From the NCBI RefSeq assembly GCF_003399445.1, contig NZ_QUQO01000001.1:1547001-1611000 (forward strand): a DNA stretch of 64,000 bases. The letters run 5' to 3'. Both the position numbers and the translations under genes were made by a program. Source of the DNA: Parvularcula marina (lineage in GTDB: Bacteria; Pseudomonadota; Alphaproteobacteria; Caulobacterales; Parvularculaceae). Positions 6,349 through 49,377 of this stretch are shown one piece after another (positions within the stretch are counted from its first letter, which is position 1; every line of letters starts with the position of its first letter). Under the pieces are notes generated by a model that was given only the letters and a program-made list of their open reading frames with translations, made no database searches and had not been told where the DNA came from.

Positions 6349-7860
6349 ATGTCCGACACGACCGGCGACATTGCAGCAAGCCACAAGATACCGGCACTTT
6401 GCGGAAACATCATCGGCGGGGAAACCTATACGCAGGGCGATCAGATACCCGTTATCTGTCCCGAGACCGACGAAGTCGTCACCCATGCGGTTGAAGCCGA
6501 TGATGAGACTTTGGATCTCGCTATCAGGACAGCTCAGGAAACCTTCGAACAAGGCGAATGGTCAAAAGCCTCCAGCGATCACCGCCAGAAAGTGCTTTTC
6601 CGCATCGCGGACCTGATTGAGAAACATCAGGAAGAGCTGGCTTGGCTTGAGACACTGAATATCGGCGCTCCGATCCGGCAGTCCGAAACACGTCACGTCA
6701 CCCGCGCTGTCCTGAACTTCAGGTTTTTCGCCGAATACTGCTCACAGACATCCGGTGACGCCTATTATCAGCAGCCAGATTACCTGACGGTGGTCACGCG
6801 CGAACCGGTGGGCGTTGCCGCCCTGATCGGTCCATGGAACGCGCCCATCGCCCTGACCACAATGAAAATTGCTGGCGCTATTGCGTTCGGCAATAGCTGC
6901 GTCGTGAAGCCATCAGAAATCTCTCCCCTGACGGCCTTTCGCGTTACGCAGCTACTTCTTGAAGCCGGCCTGCCCGAAGGCGTCGTAAATCTCGTGAATG
7001 GACGCGGCGGAACCACGGGCGCGGCGCTGTCATCGCATGACGGCATTGACCGATTGTCCTTTACCGGCGGCACCGCCACCGGGCGCGCCATCATGTCCGC
7101 CGCAGGCAAGAACCTCGTGCCCGTCACGCTGGAGCTCGGCGGCAAATCCGCGAATATCATTTTCGATGATGCCGATTATGAACAGGCCCTGGACGGATCA
7201 TTGCTTGGTATTTTCAGCAATAATGGTCAGCAATGCCTCGCAGGTTCACGCATCCTCGTGCAGCGGTCCATTTTCGACCGGTTCGTTGCTGATTTCGTCG
7301 GCCGTACGAATAATCTGCGCATGGGATCGTCCTTTGATCGCCGCACGGAAATCGGTCCGCTTGCGACCAAATCCCATTTCAACCGTGTCCTTTCCTTTGC
7401 TGACCTTGCGCGCGAAGAGGGGTGCGAGATCCTGACCGGCGGTCGCGCCGCGGATGGATACTCCAGCGGGTATTTCTTCGAGCCGACCGTCGCCGTCACG
7501 CCGCGAAATGACCTCCGGATCTGTCAGGAAGAAATCTTCGGCCCCTTCGCCACTATTCAGGTCTTTGACACGCCTGAGGAAGCATGGCGGATCGCCAATG
7601 AATCCGACTTTGGCCTTGTCAGCTATGTGTGGACATCAAGCCTTGAGACCGCAACGACCGCCCATAAAGCCATCAAGGCCGGCATGGTGCTGATCAATAC
7701 GCCCATTGTCCGGGAGCTGCGCGCGCCCTTTGGCGGGTTCAAGGATTCAGGTGTTGGCAGCGAAAGCGGCGCATCCTGCGAAGCTTTCTATACAGAACAA
7801 AAAACAACCGTCATTCCCATGGCGAAACCCAATCTGCCGAAGCTTGGATCGGAAGCCTAG
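6349..7860 (+). CDS. NAD(P)+-dependent aldehyde dehydrogenase
   Basis: A 503-residue class I/II-type aldehyde dehydrogenase. GPWNAPIALT and VVKPSE line the cofactor site, LELGGKSAN carries the general base Glu (about 262), and NNGQQCLAGSR carries the catalytic Cys (about 296). It resembles enzymes oxidising hydroxymuconic-type semialdehydes, but the substrate is not fixed by these motifs. The start at 6349 is preferred over 6319 because AAAAGGAA precedes it. The stop TAG overlaps the GTG start of the GPH transporter, so the two are coupled. It is the first gene of a four-gene unit (dehydrogenase, transporter, methyltransferase, small protein). Confidence 0.88.
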   Translation: MSDTTGDIAASHKIPALCGNIIGGETYTQGDQIPVICPETDEVVTHAVEADDETLDLAIRTAQETFEQGEWSKASSDHRQKVLFRIADLIEKHQEELAWLETLNIGAPIRQSETRHVTRAVLNFRFFAEYCSQTSGDAYYQQPDYLTVVTREPVGVAALIGPWNAPIALTTMKIAGAIAFGNSCVVKPSEISPLTAFRVTQLLLEAGLPEGVVNLVNGRGGTTGAALSSHDGIDRLSFTGGTATGRAIMSAAGKNLVPVTLELGGKSANIIFDDADYEQALDGSLLGIFSNNGQQCLAGSRILVQRSIFDRFVADFVGRTNNLRMGSSFDRRTEIGPLATKSHFNRVLSFADLAREEGCEILTGGRAADGYSSGYFFEPTVAVTPRNDLRICQEEIFGPFATIQVFDTPEEAWRIANESDFGLVSYVWTSSLETATTAHKAIKAGMVLINTPIVRELRAPFGGFKDSGVGSESGASCEAFYTEQKTTVIPMAKPNLPKLGSEA

Positions 7861-9278
7861 TGAACAAGAATGTGACGGATGCCCCGACGCTGAACCCGGG
7901 CGAAGACGGCCAGCCGAAAGTGGCGGGCGCCTACGATCCTGCGAAAGCCCTGCCACTACTATTGTGCATTGGCTGGGGGGTCGGAACATTCGGCATCTCC
8001 GTCATGTTCAATTCCGTCAATCTGCTGCTGCAACGCTATGCGACGGATTTTCTCGGCATCGCGGCCGCCTCTTATGGCGTGATCTATTTCCTCTCAAAGA
8101 TTTACGATGCCATCACCGATCCCCTGATGGGGGCAATCTCCGACCGTACCAAAAGCCGTGCCGGTCGCCGCCGTCCCTATCTCGTTCTTGGCGGCCTCGT
8201 TTCCGCCGCAGCCTTCATCGCCCTTTTCAATGCGCCGAGCATTGAGGAAACCCCATATGCGATCGCAATCTTTGCGGGTCTACTGATCTTATATTCGACC
8301 GGTTATACGATCTTCAACGTCCCTTATCTCGCCATGCCGGCGGAGATGACGACAAATTATCTCGAACGCGCCCGGCTGATTTCATTTCGTGTGTACGCGA
8401 TCGGTTTCGGCAGCCTTGCGGGTCTCTCCTTTGCCCCGATGCTGGTTGCCATGTGGGGCGGCGGACGCGAAGGGCATGTCATGCTCGCCTGGATCTATGG
8501 CGCATTGATCCTTATCGCGAGCATCACCTGCTTTGCTGCCACCAGTCAGGCGCGCGCAACGACGAACGTAGAGAAATCACCGCTGAGCCGCGCGGAGAAA
8601 CTCAAACTCATCTTCACGAACAAGCCGTTCATGATCCTTGTTGGTGTCAAGACATTGCACCTTGCGTCTCTCGCCGTAACGCAGGCCGCGTTCATCTACT
8701 TTGTCGTCTATGTTCTGGATAAAGGCTATGGCGCGCTCGGCCTCCTCGGCCTTGCCAATGCCGCCGGTATGTTGGTCGGCAACCCTCTGTGGTATTGGGC
8801 AGCCAAGAGACTGCGCGACAAACGCATCCTCTATATGTGTGCGTCGGTTTTCGCCGGATTAGTCTTGTTGAGCTGGTGGTTCTCCTCTGCTTCCGAGCCC
8901 ATGGAAGTCACAATGCTGCGCAAGTTCCTGCATGGCATCACCACGGCGGGGTCGCTTCTCTTCGGTCAGGCCATGCTGCCAGACGCCATCGCTCATGATG
9001 CTCAGCGCTCCGGGCTTCGCCGCGAAGGCATCTTCGCCGGGATTTTCACCACCGCAGAGAAGTTCGCTTTCGCAGTGGGCGGAGCAATCACCGGGATTTT
9101 CCTTGGCCTGATGGGATATATTTCGTCGACGACAGGTGCAACGGATCAACCAGAAACTGCTATTAGGGCGATCTATCTGTGCGTTTCCGTCCTGCCTGCG
9201 ACACTGTTGTTCTTCAGCGTCCTGTTGCTGACGCAGTATAATTTGAGCGAAGATCAGGTTGAGGCAGCAGCCAGATAA
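7860..9278 (+). CDS. GPH-family (MelB-type) cation symporter
   Basis: A 472-residue inner-membrane carrier with 12 predicted hydrophobic segments. The motif around DAITDPLMGAISDRTKSRAGRRRPYLV is the hallmark of the glycoside-pentoside-hexuronide:cation family. NVPYLAMPAEMT and LRREGIFAGIFTTAEKFAFA are also typical. Translation starts at GTG 7860, sharing the final G of the upstream TAG. Members in catabolic islands often carry non-sugar substrates such as organic acids or steroids, so the family name should not be taken to mean sugar uptake. It probably moves a substrate or intermediate of the island. Confidence 0.85.
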   Translation: MNKNVTDAPTLNPGEDGQPKVAGAYDPAKALPLLLCIGWGVGTFGISVMFNSVNLLLQRYATDFLGIAAASYGVIYFLSKIYDAITDPLMGAISDRTKSRAGRRRPYLVLGGLVSAAAFIALFNAPSIEETPYAIAIFAGLLILYSTGYTIFNVPYLAMPAEMTTNYLERARLISFRVYAIGFGSLAGLSFAPMLVAMWGGGREGHVMLAWIYGALILIASITCFAATSQARATTNVEKSPLSRAEKLKLIFTNKPFMILVGVKTLHLASLAVTQAAFIYFVVYVLDKGYGALGLLGLANAAGMLVGNPLWYWAAKRLRDKRILYMCASVFAGLVLLSWWFSSASEPMEVTMLRKFLHGITTAGSLLFGQAMLPDAIAHDAQRSGLRREGIFAGIFTTAEKFAFAVGGAITGIFLGLMGYISSTTGATDQPETAIRAIYLCVSVLPATLLFFSVLLLTQYNLSEDQVEAAAR

Positions 9279-38505: not shown

Positions 38506-38532
38506 TCGGCGCGGAGAATTACTCCGCGTCGG
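38506..38532 (-). terminator. Terminator of the MarR/response-regulator operon
   Basis: An 11-pair stem (38506-38516 with 38522-38532, two wobbles) and a five-base loop. On the minus strand it is followed by ACTTTGTTTTG. The response regulator's TAA stop (38519-38521) lies in the loop, so the coding end and terminator overlap. Confidence 0.75.
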
Positions 38533-38905
38533 TTGGCACTGCCTTGCTGATCGCGGAGACAACGTCTTCGTTGCGGAATGGCTTGATCAGGACTTCACTT
38601 GCCCCCCATGCGTCCGCCATGGCGATCGCCTGCTCCAGCGTGCGACCCGGGCCGCCGCCTGACATTACCACAACAGGAATGTCCGATCCCTGATCGCGTA
38701 TGTCTCTGAGGACATTCAGGCCGTGATCTTCCGGCAGCCACAGATCGAGCAGGACGACATCGAAATTCTGTCCATTGTCTGAAAGAGCTTTCCGCCCCTC
38801 TGAGGCATTATCAACCTCAGTGACCTGATGACCTTCCATCTCCAGGACGGCAACCAGCCCTTCCCGGACATGCGGATCGTCATCAATAACCAATATGTTC
38901 AGCAT
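38519..38905 (-). CDS. Single-domain response regulator (CheY-like receiver)
   Basis: A 128-residue stand-alone receiver. VIDDDPHVREGL carries the acidic pair, VVLLDLWLPEDHG the phospho-acceptor Asp (about 53), VVVMSGGG the Thr/Ser switch position (Ser here), and VLIKPF the conserved Lys. There is no output domain. The start MLNILVIDDD at 38905 is chosen because a longer frame only adds non-receiver residues overlapping the MarR gene. It lies ten bases after the MarR gene. It may receive phosphate from the orphan PAS kinase at 40009, which has no receiver of its own, but no direct evidence links them. Confidence 0.9.
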   Translation of the reverse strand: MLNILVIDDDPHVREGLVAVLEMEGHQVTEVDNASEGRKALSDNGQNFDVVLLDLWLPEDHGLNVLRDIRDQGSDIPVVVMSGGGPGRTLEQAIAMADAWGASEVLIKPFRNEDVVSAISKAVPTDAE

Positions 38906-38915
38906 CCGGATGCCC

Positions 38916-39350
38916 CTATTCCTTCGACTGCGCCAGGTGATCTGCCAGATGCGCCACGACGCGCGAAAAGGCTGACCTGTCTTCCTGACTGACTTGCCCC
39001 AATGCCAGCGCCAGCTCCTGCAGCGGGTCTTCTGACAGTTTCGTTTTTCCCTCATCCGTCAGTTCATAGAAAACGACCCGGCGGTCATCCGGGTTGCGTC
39101 TTGAACTGACAAATCCTCTGCGCTCGAGCGCGGCGGCAGCCCTCGTTGCCGTCGAGAGCTCTACGCCCAAAAAAGAAGCGATCCCGGAAGCCGTCCGGGC
39201 CGTTTCCCCAGCAAGGTCAAGATATCGCAACACGGGCCATTGGGCGGGCTGCAGGACGAAAGGTCCGCGCTCACGGTAGATTGCCCGAGCCACCTGCTCA
39301 TAAATCGAAGCAAGGCCCATCAGTTTGCGGTCCGGCGCCTCGCTGGTCAT
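38916..39350 (-). CDS. MarR-family transcriptional regulator
   Basis: A 144-residue winged-helix repressor. The core is LQPAQWPVLRYLDLAGETARTASGIASFLGVELSTATRAAAALERRGFVSSRRNPDDRRVVFYELTDEG, including the wing DRR motif. MarR proteins usually sense small aromatic or phenolic ligands or oxidants. Pairing with a single-domain receiver in one operon is unusual. The target is not evident. It is first in the operon, with ten bases to the response regulator. Confidence 0.88.
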   Translation of the reverse strand: MTSEAPDRKLMGLASIYEQVARAIYRERGPFVLQPAQWPVLRYLDLAGETARTASGIASFLGVELSTATRAAAALERRGFVSSRRNPDDRRVVFYELTDEGKTKLSEDPLQELALALGQVSQEDRSAFSRVVAHLADHLAQSKE

Positions 39351-39871: not shown

Positions 39872-40008
39872 AATGGACGGCGTATGTACTAGAAGTAGTT
39901 GCTATATGCAAGCAATAATTTGCTACTTTTTCAAGCATTTCATGCGACGACATTGTGAGCACAACCGCGGGCCACTACGCTGCCCCGCCTAGGCAGAGGA
40001 GCGCGCGA

Positions 40009-43000
40009 GTGAAACCGGTCCTGGATGACGGGCTTCTGGGCAGTCTGGTACATGGTTCAGATGTACCAGCACTGGCATGCCGTCTCGATAACCGATCAGC
40101 ATCCCTGACGAACGAGGCCTTCGCGCGCACTTTCGGCCGGGACAATGAGGCCGCTCGCCTGCTGGTCAGCAAGGGAAGCGCCCATCCGGGCACAAGTACC
40201 TATAACCTTACCTCAGAAGTCGACGGCATCACACGGCGGTTCCTCCTTGAGAGGATCACCTATCAGGGTCAGGATTGGCTGCTCGCCAAGGGCATCGATC
40301 TGCCAGCACGATCAAACATCGACAATGATCCGCCCCCGCCCGCAGAGCCCAGCCTTCTTGACCGCGCCGCCGCCTATCTCTGGCAGGCTGACAAACTCGG
40401 TCGACTGGGCTTCTTTTATGATGACTATAGAACCGGTATCTATCATGCCACAGACCGATGGTATGATTTAACGGGTTTCCCAAAACCGGATAAACCGTGC
40501 CCGTATGAAGAGCTGGCCAAAAAGGTTCTGACAGAGGAACAGCTTTCAGAAAGCCTGGAGCGACGGGAAAAATCCAAACAGAATGCCGGCGCTTACCGCC
40601 ATGAGCATGGGCGTGCTGACGGCTCTTATGATACGCACACCCTCATTTCTGACGTACAGGTCGAGGTTGATCCGGATGGAAATCCGGTCGGCGCTTTCGG
40701 TATCACGATCGAAGTTCCCGAGCTAAAACAGCTTGAGTACAAGCTACGACATGAGCGAGAGGTCTTCTCTCGCGCTCAGCATATTGCCAGGGTTGGTCAT
40801 ATTCACGACAACATCAAGGCTGGTCACTGGCACGCATCGGAAAGTTTCTTCGAACTTATCGGTCGCCCCCCCATTCATGAGAACATCGTTTATGGCAGTG
40901 AGTTGGATGAGCGGATCATCTCTCTTCACAAGGACAAAATCGAAAAACTGCGGTCCGGGTTCAATCAGGGTATCGTCCCCCCCCGTTTCATCTTCGAGAC
41001 AAAACGCTATCGTACGGATGAGCCAGCTTTTTTCGAAATCTCGTCATACCCTGAACAGGATAATTATGGCGAGGTCATCGGTTATTTCAGTATCGTTGTA
41101 GACGTCACTGAATCACGGAAACTTCGTCAGGGCCTGGAAGAAGAGCGCAATCTGCATCTTCAGGCTCAAGAGCTGGCAAAGCTCGGACATTTTATCCTTG
41201 ATCCCAAAAGCCTCAACGTCACCGTGTCACCAGTTCTCCTAGAACTTGTAGGGGTGGATCCTGATAATCCTCCGCAGACATATGGTGAAATGTCTGACCT
41301 ATTAGTCAGCACGGAAGATGCAGAAGAAAGCGCCGGAAGATTACGCTCATTCCTCAAAAAGCCTGCCCCCTATCATACAGACATACCAATCTCGCGAGCC
41401 GACACTGGCGAGAAGCGTGTTCTAGCCGTCTTTGTTAATCCGGAGACGGATTCTGAAGGCGTGCTCAAGCAGGTCTTTGGGACCATCAGAGATGTCACCG
41501 AAGAAAGAGAGCTGGAACGACAACTGGAACTTGAGCGCCGACGGTTTGAACGAGCACAGCGGCTAGGGAAGATTGGGCACGCAGTAGACAATATTTCCAA
41601 CGGAGCATTCAAAGCTTCTGATGTTCTTTGGGAATTACTCGGCATGCCCCCTATCCGAGAAGATCTACCTTATGAGGAAGTTGCCAAGGCTATTCTCCCC
41701 CCTGAAGAGGTGGAAATCAGCCTCAAACGTCGCGCAGAGGCCATCAGAATTGGCGAGCCGTATAAGTTTGAGCTCAACACTACGCGTCGTGATAATGGGA
41801 AACCTCTCACCTTCTTTATAGAGAATTATCCGCAAAAAGACAGTGACGGCAATGTCACGGAATTCTTCAGCGTGGTTGCCGACGTGACTGAACAACGGCG
41901 CCTGGAACGAGAACTGCAGAATGAACAGGCCGCATTTGAGAGAGCTCAACGCCTCGCCAGAGTTGGTCACTTTACGCAAGATCTCAAGACTCAGGAAATC
42001 ATCGCGTCCGAAACTGTCTGGCAAATGCTTGGCTTCACCGGAGGCTCACGCCCCCGGAGCTACGAAGAGTTTGCCAGCACCTTCATGAATGCCCAGCAAC
42101 GCCTTATCACTGAAGAAAGGCAGAAGCAGCTTATTGAGGCGGGTACTGATATTTCCTACGAGATCGATCTGGCTAGGGTCGATACAGGCGAACGAGGTAC
42201 TTTTGCTGTTGCTCTTCACCCCGACAAAAATTCCAGCGGCAAAATCGTCAGGATCTTTGGCGTTATTGCGGACGTAACTGAACAACGCCAACTGGAAGCC
42301 TCGCTGAGAGATGAACGGCAATTCTTTGCCAAAGCTCAAGAATTTGCGCGTCTTGGTCATTTCGTCGATGACCTTCGAGATGGATCATTCTACGCCTCAG
42401 AGATGCTGTGGGAGATTGCTGGTCTGAGCACAGATGAAGACCGCCCTAAATCTCACGCTGAGCTTTTAGAGAGATTTTTGACTCCTGCCGAACGCACACT
42501 GACTTACGCTCGGCGTGAGCAGGCCATGAAAGATGGACAATCCTATAGCGCTAAGATTCCAGCCAAAGGAAAGAAAGGTGAACCTGTCCGTCAATTCTGG
42601 ATCGAAGTCTTTCCTGAAAAAGACGATGACGGACAAGTCGTCAGATTTTTCAGTATTGTCCAGGACATTACTGAGCGCGAACTAGCCGAACAAACGCGCG
42701 AGCAACTCGAGGAAGCCCTTCAGGAAGCACAAAAACTGGAGGCCCTAAATTATTTTGCTGGCGGGATGGCGCACGAGCTTGGAAACCTTCTCCAACCTGC
42801 ACTCAATTTCGGCGCACTTGCACACTCTGCCGCATCCAAGGGTAATGCTGCCGCAGCTGCTCTTTATGCAGATCGTGTTCTCGCCGCCGTCAATCGCGCG
42901 ACAGATGTAACCAGACGCGCCCTCCAATATGTCAGGGAAACACCGACACAGGCAGAAGCGATTTCCCTCTCAGCTGCTCTAGAGTCTGCACGGATTATCC

Positions 43001-43485
43001 TGCGTTCAACTGCACCGGCGCTTGAATGGCGAATAGATCCCGAACTGAGCAACGTAAATGTCATCGCCGATGAAACCGGACTGCTACAGGTCCTCCTGAA
43101 TCTGGTCCGTAATGCAGCCGAAGCTGGTGGCCCATCTGTCAAAACCGAAATCAGGATGAGCAAAACCCGTCTTTCTCCAAATGACGCACAACAACGCGGC
43201 GTTGCCGCAGGAGAATACGTCCTGTTGACCGTGACCGATCATGGTCCTGGCATCCCGAACAATGTCCGAGGGTCAATATTCGATCCGCTCGTGACGACGA
43301 AAACAGGCGGCAAGGGGACCGGCCTCGGCCTCCCCGTTTCAAAAGGTCTGGCGGAGCGTTGGGGCGGTGCCCTCTATCTTGCAGGCACTGGGGAAAAGGG
43401 AACAACGTTCGCGATTATCTTGCCTATTGCAGCCTCTGCCCCCAACGGAACTACCGAAGCGTCCGCCCCGACTTTACTGAAATAG
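40009..43485 (+). CDS. Histidine kinase with six tandem PAS modules
   Basis: About 1158 residues. After a degenerate N-terminal PAS-like part come six PAS-PAC modules. Their LG(H/F) motifs recur near residues 131, 260, 390, 520, 650 and 780, a spacing of 129-130. ERELQNEQAAFERAQRLARVG-type helices link them. The kinase core has H922 in MAHELGNLLQP, the N-box VRNAAEAGG (N1035), DHGPGI and GTGLGL. There is no receiver and no membrane segment, so it senses in the cytoplasm. GTG 40009 is preferred over GTG 39955 because GCAGAGGAG lies just upstream. Its partner regulator is not identified. Confidence 0.9.
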   Translation: MKPVLDDGLLGSLVHGSDVPALACRLDNRSASLTNEAFARTFGRDNEAARLLVSKGSAHPGTSTYNLTSEVDGITRRFLLERITYQGQDWLLAKGIDLPARSNIDNDPPPPAEPSLLDRAAAYLWQADKLGRLGFFYDDYRTGIYHATDRWYDLTGFPKPDKPCPYEELAKKVLTEEQLSESLERREKSKQNAGAYRHEHGRADGSYDTHTLISDVQVEVDPDGNPVGAFGITIEVPELKQLEYKLRHEREVFSRAQHIARVGHIHDNIKAGHWHASESFFELIGRPPIHENIVYGSELDERIISLHKDKIEKLRSGFNQGIVPPRFIFETKRYRTDEPAFFEISSYPEQDNYGEVIGYFSIVVDVTESRKLRQGLEEERNLHLQAQELAKLGHFILDPKSLNVTVSPVLLELVGVDPDNPPQTYGEMSDLLVSTEDAEESAGRLRSFLKKPAPYHTDIPISRADTGEKRVLAVFVNPETDSEGVLKQVFGTIRDVTEERELERQLELERRRFERAQRLGKIGHAVDNISNGAFKASDVLWELLGMPPIREDLPYEEVAKAILPPEEVEISLKRRAEAIRIGEPYKFELNTTRRDNGKPLTFFIENYPQKDSDGNVTEFFSVVADVTEQRRLERELQNEQAAFERAQRLARVGHFTQDLKTQEIIASETVWQMLGFTGGSRPRSYEEFASTFMNAQQRLITEERQKQLIEAGTDISYEIDLARVDTGERGTFAVALHPDKNSSGKIVRIFGVIADVTEQRQLEASLRDERQFFAKAQEFARLGHFVDDLRDGSFYASEMLWEIAGLSTDEDRPKSHAELLERFLTPAERTLTYARREQAMKDGQSYSAKIPAKGKKGEPVRQFWIEVFPEKDDDGQVVRFFSIVQDITERELAEQTREQLEEALQEAQKLEALNYFAGGMAHELGNLLQPALNFGALAHSAASKGNAAAAALYADRVLAAVNRATDVTRRALQYVRETPTQAEAISLSAALESARIILRSTAPALEWRIDPELSNVNVIADETGLLQVLLNLVRNAAEAGGPSVKTEIRMSKTRLSPNDAQQRGVAAGEYVLLTVTDHGPGIPNNVRGSIFDPLVTTKTGGKGTGLGLPVSKGLAERWGGALYLAGTGEKGTTFAIILPIAASAPNGTTEASAPTLLK

Positions 43486-43807: not shown

Positions 43808-46807
43808 GTGGATGGCGTGAGCGAAAAGGCCATACTCGTAGATATCAGCCGTGACACGTGCCAGCTTGCTGTGATGCGCTGGACGGGCGAAGACCGGCCT
43901 GCCTTCATGTTCAACCGCGAATATGAAGCACAGTCGCACGCACGCCTGGATGATATGCTCGATACATATCTTGAGCATTACGACGCCCCCACACCGAAGA
44001 CACTTGGAATTGCTATCGCAGGGCCGATCACCGGCGATATTGTCAGGTCCATGCACAATCATCTCCATGCAGACATAAATCTGCTCAAGGAGAAATTCGG
44101 CTTTAAGCGCGTTATACTTCTCAATGATGTTAGCGCTATCGCTTCATCGATTCCATGGCTTGATCCCGCCGACATACTTCAATTTTCAGGACCTCGCCTA
44201 TCAGGCCAGTTTGATACAGAGCACGGTCGTTATGGCGTTCTGAATTCCTGTAAGGGACTGGGCTGCGCATCTTTGAATGCAAACGAAGGCCAGCTTACAA
44301 TCGTCGACTCCGAAGCAGGTCATGCGACATTTGCCTTTACGGGCAAGGGCGCAGAACTCCTCACCAGCCTGCGAAAGAGGTACGGCTTCATCAGTAGAGA
44401 AACCGTTCTGACATTCGATGGACTGGTTCGCATCTACAATGCCTTATGTGAAGTCGAAGGCATTTCGAGCTCGACACTCGCCGCTCATGAGATCATCATG
44501 TACGGCAAGACGGGCGCCGACCCTCTTTGTCAGCAGACGCTCGATTTTTACTATGATGCCCTCGCATCGGTTGCCGGGGATTTCGCCCTTGAGCGCTGCA
44601 CGACGAATGGCCTTTTTATCGCTGGCGGCGTTGTCAGGCGGACGATGGAATCGCTTCCTCGTGAAGCGTTTCGCAAGCGGTTCGAAGACAAAGGTGACTT
44701 TTCCGAATTCACATCGGCCATCCCGGCCTGCATCGTCCACAATCGCAGCGCCGGACTGATCGGCCTGGCCCGTCATGTATCAGAGAAACTGGCGCAGGAT
44801 GCAGAAAACCGTCTGAAACCCTTGGGACCAACCATTCTTGAGGAAGTCTCAGGCCACCTTGATCAGTCTGCCTTCATCATCAATGACCGGCTCGAATTTG
44901 TCGGCGTGACATCACAAAACTGGTATGACACGCCGGGAGCAGAGACGCTGACCGAAAAGGGCGCGCCCCTCGGCCCGTTCCTTCAGGCGATGGAGAGCTC
45001 TCTTCAGCTGACGGATGAAGAAACCGCCGACACACTTGCGGTAAAATTCTCCGGCAATCAGGAATTCGAGTTTACGCGCCGCGTTTTTGGCAGCCGCATA
45101 CTCAGATGCCATGCCTACCCCCGCCCCTCTGGCGGCTTTGTCGTTATCGAAACGGACCGGACACTCGTTCATAATCGCACACGTGAGCTTGAGACGATTG
45201 CCCTGACCCTGCGTCAAGAGAAGAACAACGCGGACGCCGCGAGCCGCGCAAAGTCGGAATTTCTTGCTAATATGAGCCATGAAATCCGTACCCCCCTTAA
45301 CGGGGTATTGGGTATGGCAGATGTGCTGCGACGTTCCTCCCTTACTCCATCTCAGATCGAGACTTTGGACGTCATCATCTCGTCTGGTAATTCTCTTCTA
45401 ACCGTCATCAATGACATCCTCGATTTCTCGAAAATCGAAGCCGGCAAAATGCGGATCCAGCAGAATAATCTGGATCTTCAGTCTTGCACGGATGAAGTTG
45501 CCGCTATTCTGGCCGCAGAGGTCGACAGGAAGGGTCTTGAACTCATGACTCGCTTCCGTCCTGATACGCCGCGTTGGCTGCTTGGCGATGCGGGCCGCCT
45601 GCGCCAGATCATGACCAACCTTCTTGGCAATGCCGTGAAGTTTACGGAAGAAGGTCACATCCTGCTTGATGTGTCTGGGGGTCAGATTGGTGATGAAGCC
45701 GACATCTCGATCACCGTCACAGATACTGGATGCGGCATTCCCGACGACAAGCTCGAGACGATCTTCCAGACTTTTGAGCAGGTCGACGGCTCCTCCACGC
45801 GGGTTCATCAGGGGACGGGACTTGGCCTCTCGATCACCCGGCGCATGGTCGAGCTGATGGGGGGCACGATTTCGGTCAGCAGTACACTCGGCGCTGGCTC
45901 TTCTTTTACCGTTAGACTGCGGCTGCCGCTGGGGGTCGCTGAAGAGCTCTGCCCGAGCAGCATTGACGACGGGCTTGATGGTTATCGTATACTGATTGTT
46001 GATGACCAACCGGTGAACCGAACAATCCTTCAGGAGCAGCTATCCGCATGGGGCTGCGAAGTGATCTCCGCCGCTGGTGCATCTGACGCGATCAGCGCGC
46101 TCTCACGAGAATTCGAAGAGGGACGCAAGGTAGATGCAGCGATCCTTGACTATCAAATGCCGTATATGGACGGTATGACGCTGGCCAAGGAATTGAAAGC
46201 CCAGAAGCAGTATCGGGACATCCCCCTGACACTTCTGACGTCCGTCGGTAGTGTCGTTGATGCGCCTGATCTTGATCAGGCAGGTTTTGTCACTCATCTC
46301 GTCAAACCGGCCCGCGCCCAATCTCTCTGGCATGCTCTCGTCAAAGCGCTTGGAAAGGTGCAGCCGGTAACGCAGACTGACAATCCGGATAACCAGCCCG
46401 GCTCTGAGGAAATGGACCGCCCGGTCATGCGCGTACTCGTTGCTGAGGACAATGCGGTCAACAGGATGGTTATCACAGCCATGCTGGAGAATGGCGGCTA
46501 TGAGATCACTATGACGGAAGGTGGCGAAGAAGCCGTCTCTGCCTTCTCAGAAATGAAACCGGACATCGTCCTGATGGATGTACAGATGCCCGGCATTGAT
46601 GGCCTGGAGGCAACAAAGCGTATACGGTCGATTGAAGAGCAAAACGGCATCGAAGAGCATGTACCGGTGATCGGGATCACGGCGCACACCATGCCCGAAG
46701 ACCGCCGGCGATGCCTTGACAGCGGGATGGATGATTATCTTCCCAAACCGATCGTCAGAGACAAGCTTTTGGGTGTCATGGAGCGTTTCCGCAAGCAGTC
46801 CGCCTGA
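43808..46807 (+). CDS. Pseudo-glucokinase / hybrid histidine kinase fusion with two receivers
   Basis: A 999-residue protein. Residues 1-325 match Glk-type glucokinase along the whole domain: AGPITGD (71-77), [13 protein letters not shown] (104-116), SEAGH (168-172), [11 protein letters not shown] (268-278) and [10 protein letters not shown] (292-301). Predicted sugar contacts N106, D107, E169, H172 and E198 are kept, but the phosphate loop DVGGTNARLA of E. coli Glk reads [10 protein letters not shown], so kinase activity is doubtful. A PAS-like linker (about 346-450) leads to HisKA (H491 in [11 protein letters not shown]), HATPase (N608, D639, GTGLGL 669-674), receiver 1 (D781, K833) and receiver 2 (D924, K980). 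I infer a cytoplasmic glucose sensor. Confidence 0.88.
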
Positions 46808-46816
46808 CCGGAAACA

Positions 46817-47908
46817 TCAGACCTCAAGGCTCGCCGTCTTGACGAGGGCAAAGACCCGCTCACCTGCCGTGAGGGCTAGCTCATCTAACGCTTCACGCGT
46901 CACCTGCGCCCGCAGGCATTGGCCATCTATCTCCATTTCGATCAGTGCAAGCGGCTGATTGTCTTCAACCGTTGCACCTTTGAAAATGGCCGGCAGGATA
47001 TTCCTGATGCTGATCTGCTCCGGCTTGTGCCGTGAGATCGCAACATTGCGGGCTTCTATTCTGAGACGAATGTCGGTGCCGGTTGCCATCGCGTTCGCTG
47101 TCGGCAGGGAGATGACACCGTCACCAATGGCTATCCGGATCAAGTGATAGGCTTCATCATGGCTGGTGACGGTTCCAGTCAGAATAACGCCCGGCTCAAT
47201 GCCGCTATCTCCCTTCGCAACACCATGTTCATTGAGCACCGGCACGGTCGGGCCTGACGCCTTCACTCTGCCTGCTGACAGAATAATCGTATTCGAGGCG
47301 AGTTGGATCACCTCTCCCACATCATGGCTCACATAAAGCACAGGCATGCAGAAGCGCCCCGGCAGATCACCGATCAGCGAGAGAATATCTGCGCGCCGTC
47401 CCCGGTCGAGCGCTGACAGGGGCTCATCAAGCAGGAGCAGACGAGGTCGGCTCAGCAAGGTTCGGGCAAGCGCGACACGCTGGCGCTCACCGCCAGAAAG
47501 GGAGATGGGCAGTCTGGGCAGCAAGGGGGATAGCTCGAATGCGTCGATGATATCAGCCTTGGAGAAGGCAGTTTGTGTACTGCCGCTCCGCCGATCCGCG
47601 TAGAGAAGATTTCTCTCGACACTCAGATGTGGAAACAGCCGGCCATCCTGAAACATATATCCGATGCTACGGCGATGTGCCGGAACGAACGCGCCACTCA
47701 CTGTGTCGCAAAGAACATCCGCGCCATGAGCGAGACGGCCGCGATCAGGTCTAAGGAACCCGGTGATCAATCGGAGAAGCGTCGTCTTGCCGCTGCCGCT
47801 CGGCCCGAAAATGGCTGTGATCCCGTCAAGCGGGATGGATTGAGCGATACTCAGCTGGAAATCGCCAAAGCCATGCTCGATATCGATCTCCAGATGATCA
47901 GTGGGCAT
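46817..47908 (-). CDS. modC: Molybdate ABC transporter ATP-binding protein
   Basis: A 363-residue ATPase. GPSGSGKTT (Walker A), LSGGERQRVALARTLLSRPRLLLLDEPLSALD (signature and Walker B) and VLYVSHDVGEV (H-loop) are intact. The C-terminal 130 residues carry a TOBE/MOP-type domain (RNILPAIFKGATVEDNQPLALIEMEID) that binds oxyanion in ModC. The start MPTDHLEID at 47908 is chosen; a frame from 48001 would add residues overlapping modB. It overlaps the modB stop by 11 bases and is the last gene of modABC. Confidence 0.93.
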   Translation of the reverse strand: MPTDHLEIDIEHGFGDFQLSIAQSIPLDGITAIFGPSGSGKTTLLRLITGFLRPDRGRLAHGADVLCDTVSGAFVPAHRRSIGYMFQDGRLFPHLSVERNLLYADRRSGSTQTAFSKADIIDAFELSPLLPRLPISLSGGERQRVALARTLLSRPRLLLLDEPLSALDRGRRADILSLIGDLPGRFCMPVLYVSHDVGEVIQLASNTIILSAGRVKASGPTVPVLNEHGVAKGDSGIEPGVILTGTVTSHDEAYHLIRIAIGDGVISLPTANAMATGTDIRLRIEARNVAISRHKPEQISIRNILPAIFKGATVEDNQPLALIEMEIDGQCLRAQVTREALDELALTAGERVFALVKTASLEV

Positions 47909-48575
47909 GGACGCGATACCGGCGATTGAAGACGTAGACGAACAAAAGAACGCAGAAGGAGAAAAGGAGAAGCAGCAGCGACAAAGCGTGCGCTTCATCA
48001 TAATTTAGCGTCTCGACATGCTCATAAATAGCAATCGAGAGCACCCTCGTCTCTCCCGGGATATTGCCGCCGACCATGAGGACAACACCGAACTCGCCGA
48101 GCGTGTGGGCAAAGCTGAGCACGGCCGCGGTCAGAAATCCCCGTACGGAGAGAGGCACGGCAACAGAAAAGAACGCATCGAGAGGCGAGGCCCGCAGGCT
48201 GGCGGCCGCCTCCATCATTTCTCCCGCGACGTTCTCAAAAGCCGCCTGCAACGGCTGGACCGTGAAAGGGAGAGAATAAAGAACCGAGGCGATGACGAGC
48301 CCCGCGAAAGAAAAGATCAGTGTGTCGCCTGTCAACGTGATCCAGAAACTGCCGATCGGAGATGACGGATTGAACGCCAGCAGGAGATAAAATCCGAGTA
48401 CAGTTGGCGGCAGGACAAGAGGCAACGCCACCACAGCCTCGATCGCGGGCTTCAACCTCGTTCGTGTCCGAGCCAGCCACCAGGCGAGAGGGGTGCCGAT
48501 CAGGAGGAGCAGAACCGTCGTCACGACTCCGAGCTGCAGCGTCAGCCATAGCGCATCGAGGTCAGGCAGGCTCAT
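47898..48575 (-). CDS. modB: Molybdate ABC transporter permease
   Basis: A 225-residue inner-membrane protein with five or six hydrophobic segments. VALPLVLPPTVLGFYLLLAF and EAAASLRASPLDAFFSVAVPLSVRGFLTAAVLSFAHTLGEFGVVLMVGGNIPGETR (the EAA coupling loop and its flank) are characteristic of ModB. Its start overlaps the stop of modA (ATGA). With ModA and ModC it imports molybdate for molybdenum-cofactor enzymes. Confidence 0.94.
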   Translation of the reverse strand: MSLPDLDALWLTLQLGVVTTVLLLLIGTPLAWWLARTRTRLKPAIEAVVALPLVLPPTVLGFYLLLAFNPSSPIGSFWITLTGDTLIFSFAGLVIASVLYSLPFTVQPLQAAFENVAGEMMEAAASLRASPLDAFFSVAVPLSVRGFLTAAVLSFAHTLGEFGVVLMVGGNIPGETRVLSIAIYEHVETLNYDEAHALSLLLLLFSFCVLLFVYVFNRRYRVHAH

Positions 48576-49330
48576 TCCGTCTCATACCCATGGCCGCGGA
48601 TCAGAGCTTTCGCCTTCTCACTTTTCAGGAAGTTGATAAAGTCAGTCGCGGCGGCATTCTCACCCCCGTGGCGCAACAGGACCGCATCCTGCCGGATCGG
48701 ATCGGAAGATTCTTGAGGCGGGATCCACACGAGCCCAGTCTGCTCGCGCACTTCCGGATCAAGCTGTGACAGGGCAACGAAGCCGAGTTCTGCATTCCCT
48801 GTCCAGATAAAAGCATAAGTCTGGCCGATATTCTCCCCAAGGACGATCCTGTCCTGAAGAGCTTCGAAAAGGCCGAGCGTGGTGAGAACCTGCCTTGCGG
48901 CCTGCCCGTAAGGCGCCAGTTCCGGATTGGCGATCGCAAGACGCCGGAAGCTCATCTGTTCCAGCCGGTCTGGGCCTGCGGATTTCGCGATCGGATCAAG
49001 AAGGACAATCCGCCCGACAGCATAGGTGAACCGGTCTTGTGCTCGGCTCACTTCAACCAAACGGCGAGGCCGTTCCTGATCCGCCGAGAGGAAAACATCA
49101 TAGGGCGCGCCATTGATGATCTGGGCATAGAGTTTGCCCGTCGAGCCCGCCGACACCAGAAGATCGTGTCCGGATTGTTCCTCAAAGACCAGCTCCAGCT
49201 CATCCATGGCCGGCTTGAAATTGGAGGCAACGGCAATCCGCACGACTTCGGCCTGTGCGACCGCCAAAAGGCCCACCAGCATCGTAGAGATGACAGCCAG
49301 AGCGGACATGAGATTCTTGGTGGTGAACAT
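48572..49330 (-). CDS. modA: Molybdate-binding periplasmic protein
   Basis: A secreted binding protein of about 252 residues. The signal peptide is LMSALAVISTMLVGLLAVAQA, and the mature part begins EVVRIAVASNFKPAMDELELVFEEQSGHDLLVSAGSTGKLYAQI, which places the Ser/Thr ligands for the oxyanion. DVFLSADQERPRRL and AIANPELAPYGQAA are also ModA-like. The start is uncertain: 49366, 49357 and 49330 are all in frame, and 49330 gives the most normal signal peptide. No ModE-type repressor or operator was recognised. Confidence 0.9.
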   Translation of the reverse strand: MFTTKNLMSALAVISTMLVGLLAVAQAEVVRIAVASNFKPAMDELELVFEEQSGHDLLVSAGSTGKLYAQIINGAPYDVFLSADQERPRRLVEVSRAQDRFTYAVGRIVLLDPIAKSAGPDRLEQMSFRRLAIANPELAPYGQAARQVLTTLGLFEALQDRIVLGENIGQTYAFIWTGNAELGFVALSQLDPEVREQTGLVWIPPQESSDPIRQDAVLLRHGGENAAATDFINFLKSEKAKALIRGHGYETE

Positions 49331-49377
49331 GACGGCTGATCCGTATACGGGTTTCATCACCCGCATACAGCCAGCAT

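Follow-up and report, generated by a model that had tools for sequence, protein, structure and literature searches.

A degenerate glucokinase joined to a hybrid histidine kinase in Parvularculaceae as a candidate intracellular sugar sensor

The gene at 43808-46807 on the forward strand of the window (the whole stretch of 64,000 nucleotides from Parvularcula marina that was analysed) encodes a Glk-type glucokinase domain fused to a hybrid histidine kinase. The GGT of the first phosphate loop and the threonine of the second have been lost, the asparagine, glutamate and histidine at the core of the sugar pocket are kept and the residues on which the kinase depends are conserved. The same fusion occurs in five genomes and its kinase halves have one origin. 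The best reading, which we hold with somewhat better than even confidence, is a soluble hybrid histidine kinase whose pseudo-glucokinase domain closes on a sugar and so gates the kinase. The domain probably reports intracellular sugar rather than processing it, because the parts that use ATP have been lost while most of the sugar pocket has been retained. The features of the gene are listed below.

43808..46807, forward strand: whole gene, pseudo-glucokinase / PAS_7 / hybrid histidine kinase, 999 aa (ORF list, translation, Pfam)
43808..44812, forward strand: pseudo-glucokinase domain, residues 1-335 (Pfam PF02685, AF2, Foldseek 1sz2)
43841..43870, forward strand: degenerate phosphate-1 loop, residues 12-21 (GGT motif gone in 5/5 fusions)
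44123..44128, forward strand: sugar contacts N106 and D107 (N99 and D100 of E. coli Glk, by alignment)
44249..44263, forward strand: degenerate phosphate-2 loop CKGLG, residues 148-152 (T137 gone in 5/5 fusions)
44312..44323, forward strand: sugar contacts E169 and H172 (E157 and H160 of E. coli Glk), motif EAGH, conserved in 9/9 members of the clade described below
44399..44401, forward strand: sugar contact E198 (E187 of E. coli Glk, by alignment)
44819..45166, forward strand: PAS_7-like linker, about residues 338-453, left border by eye (best stretch residues 379-453; PAS_7 fits better in the orthologues)
45248..45445, forward strand: HisKA, residues 481-546, phospho-acceptor H491 (Pfam and alignment)
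45584..45928, forward strand: HATPase_c, residues 593-707 (Pfam)
45986..46345, forward strand: receiver 1, about residues 727-846, acceptor D781, borders by eye (Pfam and alignment)
46433..46771, forward strand: receiver 2, residues 876-988, acceptor D924 (Pfam and alignment)

According to the ORF list and translation the gene is a single open frame with a GTG start. The sequence-only reading had described a Glk-type glucokinase followed by a PAS-like linker, HisKA, HATPase and two receivers, and this layout was confirmed by Pfam, which found the Glk, HisKA, HATPase and receiver domains. Glucokinase (PF02685) was matched at residues 19-324 with 213.7 bits and an E-value of 4e-63 (cut-off 22.1), and Response_reg was matched over two stretches, the best being residues 876-988. 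The linker of the window protein matched PAS_7 weakly (15 bits, E 0.027, cut-off 27), and those of the orthologues scored 33.5, 41.1 and 31.2 bits in three cases and 26.9 in the fourth against the same cut-off. Judged by these scores, the linker is a putative diverged PAS_7 domain and is referred to as PAS_7-like. H491, N608, D781 and D924 were invariant across the five fusions in the alignment, and the protein has what defines a hybrid histidine kinase, namely a HisKA with its histidine, an HATPase and a receiver with its aspartate. By hydropathy the window protein has no membrane span, and the G057 and G058 fusions each have one borderline segment (1.62 at a threshold of 1.6). Two HPt domains above cut-off are encoded elsewhere in the window genome, and no stand-alone response regulator was seen adjoining the gene in the window. 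About 5 kb upstream of the fusion gene a receiver-like frame (38519-39055) overlaps a MarR-like frame (38916-39350) by 140 bases on one strand (-), both read by eye.

E. coli K-12 Glk was used as the yardstick for individual residues, with Glu157 taken by us to be a glucose contact and Asp100 presumably the catalytic base. Asn99, Asp100, His160 and Glu187 are included among its glucose-binding residues in PMC13133996. All five contacts are present in the window protein (N106, D107, E169, H172 and E198, equivalent to N99, D100, E157, H160 and E187), and the ATP loops carry the kind of substitutions that the sequence-only reading had pointed out, with G11-G12-T13 replaced by S-R-D and G136-T137 by C-K. 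The phosphate-1 motif DxGGTNxR and the phosphate-2 motif GTG(L/F)G were thus both absent, and GGT and the phosphate-2 threonine were missing from all five fusions. Site by site, G12, T13 and T137 were each kept in 0/5 fusions, G11 and G136 each in 1/5 and G263 in 3/5, while Asp9, G138 and G140 were kept in 5/5. In comparison, among 72 standalone ORFs, a set which includes three degenerate relatives (L007-L009), the expected residue was found at G11 in 69, at G12 in 65, at T13 and G136 in 69 each and at T137 in 66. The sugar contacts N99, E157 and H160 were kept in every fusion, E187 in four and D100 in three (22 of 25 cells in total), with N in one fusion and S in another at position 100. The earlier claim that the sugar contacts are retained therefore stands for the window protein and only in part for its orthologues, and the pocket is changing in some fusions because D100 was lost in two of the five and E187 in one.

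Predicted loss of phosphotransfer in the pseudo-glucokinase domain, as proposed earlier, is well supported by the disappearance of GGT and the phosphate-2 threonine from 5/5 fusions together with the change at position 100 in two. The domain may still bind nucleotide weakly, since Asp9, G138 and G140 persist in all five. Assignment to the Glk type by fold and whole-domain homology was supported by Pfam, AlphaFold and Foldseek, and the best PDB sequence matches were bacterial glucokinases (2.6e-35 to 6.3e-34). The window protein scored 150.3 bits against the NCBIfam glk model TIGR00749, below the curated cut-off of 225.45 bits. The five matches that Pfam gave at E 0.1 included neither the ROK family nor a DNA-binding domain, the two features of a ROK repressor.

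An AlphaFold (AF2) model of residues 1-336 built on a 54-row alignment had a pLDDT of 93 and a pTM of 0.91, and superseded a poor earlier model from a 5-row alignment (pLDDT 66, pTM 0.42). The first three Foldseek rows for the model were all glucokinases (3vpz, 1q18 and 1sz2). The structure 3vpz was top by E-value (TM 0.80/0.83), glucose-bound E. coli 1sz2 was best by TM (0.88/0.92, rmsd 2.0) and apo E. coli 1q18 gave a poorer fit (TM 0.84/0.88, rmsd 2.8). Because the alignment behind the model consists mostly of canonical glucokinases, so that the fold is partly imposed, the predicted match indicates compatibility with the Glk fold rather than independent proof of it. Helix 315-335 of the model matches the C-terminal helix of the E. 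coli small domain, and the linker begins just after it. The E. coli small domain, which comprises residues 2-110 and 300-321, moves and closes the cleft on glucose according to PMC12312565.

In the mechanism that we propose, the input domain would be a glucokinase without the loops that hold the ATP phosphates, so that a cytoplasmic sugar would enter the cleft between the lobes and the lobes would shut in the manner of the E. coli enzyme. On closure the small lobe's C-terminal helix, joined to the PAS_7 linker, would shift, and since the linker starts just after this helix the movement would pull directly on PAS_7 and the kinase. Autophosphorylation at H491 would be switched, with flow of phosphate to D781/D924 and onward to a separate HPt and regulator. 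Sugar binding, the direction in which the kinase is switched, its output and its control by a ligand are all inferred.

A search of other genomes for the same fusion, suggested by the sequence-only reading, yielded four more (G057, G058, G001 and G051), all from Parvularculaceae, which together with the window gives 5/62 genomes of the family. Carriers outside the window include Amphiplicatus metriothermophilus (G001), an uncultured Parvularcula (G058) and Parvularcula dongshanensis (G051), the latter two being of the same genus as the window. Three named carriers were found by an alignment-based scan of relatives' contigs, and a scan of close-relative contigs with the single protein as query found none. 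Further fusions were found in none of 398 sampled genomes of the order (single protein, E <= 1e-30), 385 of the class (alignment, E <= 1e-30) and 398 of the phylum (alignment, E <= 1e-45), these samples overlapping one another, with at most four candidates per genome scored in the class and phylum scans. At the cut-off used, the order scan did not recover the G051 fusion that was already known, and an equally diverged copy would escape it too. In the class and phylum scans the window's own row is the only one to extend beyond position 373 of the 468 in the model.

Long-frame Glk hits were considered as candidate fusions and rejected, a HisKA motif being present in 0/31 of the frames read (12 plus 19, 408 to 1267 aa, with L155 read up to its first stop). 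Five long-tailed hits from the phylum scan were Glk-RpiR proteins with Glucokinase, HTH_6 and SIS domains by Pfam (5/5 scanned), and because these turned up the scans do recover Glk fusions. Among the best 5000 records of a plasmid tblastn search none covered 80% of the query, and in the five rows viewed the matches began at residues 233 to 444.

A canonical glucokinase with the motif D(I/M)GGTNARF is also present in all five carriers. The canonical glk follows zwf- and edd-like genes in Amphiplicatus (L102) and is located near an aminopeptidase-like gene in Parvularcula-type genomes (L037, L039, L100 and L101), all names being given by eye. The family also contains four standalone degenerate glucokinases in genomes G010, G011 and G017, located near genes reading by eye as ffh, rimM and trmD. 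These are found at L099:7705-8724, L038:6411-7478 and L098:6168-7175 and 7247-8275, include one tandem pair and are without a normal phosphate-1 loop. The five fusion domains and the four standalone proteins formed one clade (99/95), which was still recovered at 98/85 without the active-site columns. Three rows of the Glk tree, FUSG051 included, were on very long branches. The five fusions were not a branch of their own in this tree, and joining them cost 0.94 log units (AU p 0.28).

For the kinase halves, all five fusions grouped in one clade (100/100), which was placed next to 16 family kinases (92/81, just under the star) with two to six membrane segments each by hydropathy. Two of the 16 were scanned by Pfam and contained further PAS domains and PAS_7 followed by the same HisKA-HATPase-REC-REC arrangement. 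Since the kinase halves share one clade and group next to membrane kinases of Parvularculaceae, the pseudo-glucokinase apparently took the place of a membrane/PAS input. The branching order ((window, G058), G057), G001 was identical in the Glk-half and kinase-half trees, and the simplest account of these sequences would be a single fusion event. An oddity is that Amphiplicatus, which belongs to another genus, branches inside and G051 outside, and a kinship-like alternative was not rejected (AU p 0.076). Non-fusion hybrid kinases matching the kinase half at E <= 1e-140 were present in 37/62 genomes of Parvularculaceae, one example being L124:6239-9748, and G001 and G051 carry such a kinase besides the fusion. 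None was seen at this threshold among the 19 candidates scored per genome in G000, G057 and G058, and with all 52 candidates of G000 scored the next best after the fusion was 1.8e-132.

Across the nine members of the clade, 39 of 45 cells were kept at the five sugar sites and 139 of 243 at 27 other conserved sites. Retention as high was seen in 182 of 10,000 sets drawn at random from the other sites, although the nine rows are related and the test overstates its evidence. N99, E157 and H160 were kept in 9/9 members, and the corresponding N106, E169 and H172 are among seven columns invariant over the 54 glucokinase-like rows. The six scorable nucleotide sites were kept in 30 of 54 cells, and retention was equally low or lower in 4744 of 10,000 random sets, so that these sites showed no excess loss. 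G136 and T137 alone stood out (kept in 2/18 cells; 522 of 10,000), phosphate-1 being outside this test as many rows start after it. Identity between carriers was 27-43% for the pseudo-Glk domains, 35-51% for canonical Glk and 44-61% for the kinase halves, and the pseudo-Glk domains were less alike than canonical Glk in 10/10 species pairs. From these comparisons the pseudo-Glk domain appears to be constrained yet faster-changing than the enzyme.

The same patterns bear on other roles for the domain. It is unlikely, though worth serious consideration, that it is a protein-protein docking module whose Glk fold was kept for pairing with a partner such as the canonical glucokinase, with sugar binding secondary. 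This would suit the incomplete pocket in two of the five fusions, the faster divergence in every species pair and the canonical enzyme in every carrier, but N99, E157 and H160 were kept in all nine members across very long branches and the sugar sites were kept better than other conserved sites. Rather less likely is that a sugar phosphate or another metabolite, and not free sugar, is sensed in the former nucleotide space. Polar or charged residues do replace the phosphate loops in most copies, and His160 and Ser185, which are part of the E. coli anion site described in PMC13133996 and PMC12312565, are kept in 5/5 fusions, while Arg286 of that site is aligned with Asp in the window protein and argues against such a ligand.

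The fast divergence might also be that of a decaying passenger domain without an input role. This is improbable given a frame that is open in five genomes, four copies that branch alike in both halves and the seven invariant columns. We consider it marginally less probable still that the domain remains an enzyme with unusual loops, the flux through which is sensed. The retention of Asp9, G138 and G140 and the lack of excess loss over the nucleotide sites as a set would agree with activity, but GGT and T137 are gone from 5/5 fusions, position 100 is changed in two and G263 is lost in two.

For the favoured reading of a kinase gated by sugar-induced closure, the most likely ligand is a hexose or pentose connected with the use of plant polymers. 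The Amphiplicatus copy is located inside a xylan-utilisation locus of some 40 kb and is flanked by a divergent LacI-type regulator and a TIM-barrel protein. The locus includes XylB and ManD above the NCBIfam cut-offs, as well as GH3, GH9, GH10, GH43 and GH115 enzymes, a TRAP transporter, a XylE-like porter, an aldose epimerase and a TonB receptor. A palindrome before the Amphiplicatus gene was rejected as a LacI operator as its matches in two stretches were at chance level. No sugar-use genes were recognised, mostly by eye, among the neighbours called for the other four copies, and carB (by eye) adjoins the fusion gene in both G057 and G058.

GH10 was present in 13/62 family genomes, including 4/5 fusion carriers compared with 9/57 others (P 0.0056), or 6/8 compared with 7/54 when all pseudo-glucokinase carriers were counted. 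Stratified over three genera the link had a P of 0.038, and no link was found inside the window's genus (3/4 carriers and 4/6 others), the association being confounded by kinship. XylB was above cut-off in 4/5 carriers, and the fifth, G058, has a fragmented assembly and is also without GH10. Because of the Amphiplicatus locus and the occurrence of GH10 and XylB, a xylan-derived sugar is a fair candidate ligand, and such sugars are favoured for Amphiplicatus. Glucose is possible in the window species because the pocket is complete there; the argument for glucose would come from ancestry, and the one informative neighbourhood is the xylan locus. We regard as evenly balanced the broader proposal of a new sensor class, in which a pseudo-glucokinase lineage of one family, alone or as the input of a hybrid kinase, passes lobe closure into a phosphorelay and governs xylan use in some species.

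The domain resembles E. coli Glk (group II, non-ROK, PF02685) in fold, domain extent and glucose-contact residues, and differs in that the phosphate-1 GGT and phosphate-2 threonine are gone, the domain is joined to a hybrid kinase and a canonical copy is present elsewhere in the genome. The ROK repressors Mlc, NagC and Lmo0178, which we take to have a sensing role, likewise join a sugar-kinase fold to an output module, and the Foldseek search with the model listed two of them, Mlc and Lmo0178. They belong to another branch of the sugar-kinase superfamily, however, and their output is DNA binding and not a histidine kinase. Sensors of sugar-kinase kin are known as repressors such as Mlc and NagC, and if our reading is true the same trick would here feed a phosphorelay. 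Yeast Gal3 and plant hexokinase 1 are kin of sugar kinases that sense without a need for catalysis, although these are eukaryotic and without a phosphorelay fusion. The protein is soluble and testable and may read intracellular sugar directly, whereas to our knowledge sugar-responsive kinases mostly read outside or periplasmic signals.

Membrane hybrid kinases of Parvularculaceae (TM-PAS-PAS-PAS_7-HisKA-HATPase-REC-REC) are 43-50% identical to the fusion from PAS_7 or HisKA to the second receiver, but have membrane spans and further PAS domains as their input. The fusion would represent an exchange of sensor modules for which the donor kin (standalone pseudo-glucokinases) and acceptor kin (membrane PAS kinases) persist in one family. 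CrbS-type kinases with an SLC5 transporter domain, as described in PMC5715377, also have a metabolic protein fused to a histidine kinase, in their case a transporter rather than the dead enzyme of the fusion. No glucokinase-histidine kinase sensor was found in a literature search that missed most subscription papers, and the protein would be a new type of sensor built on a familiar chassis.

The bifunctional Glk-RpiR regulator (NF010701) similarly joins a Glk domain to a regulatory module, but its output is a transcription factor and its Glk domain scores 348-379 bits compared with 213.7 in the fusion. Two long-tailed Glk proteins of the phylum scan, L154 and L156, have the phosphate-1 loops DIGATYARF and DIGGLYARF and are possibly other glucokinases turning into regulators; L154 is a Glk-RpiR protein by Pfam.

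The next gene upstream of the fusion gene in the window, 39955-43485, encodes a protein of 1176 aa with PAS and HATPase matches, in which repeats of a PAS unit were seen by eye and HisKA had no match at E 1e-5. Downstream and on the other strand, the region 46817-49366 (-) contains molybdate-type ABC transporter-like genes, read by eye as modC, modB and modA.
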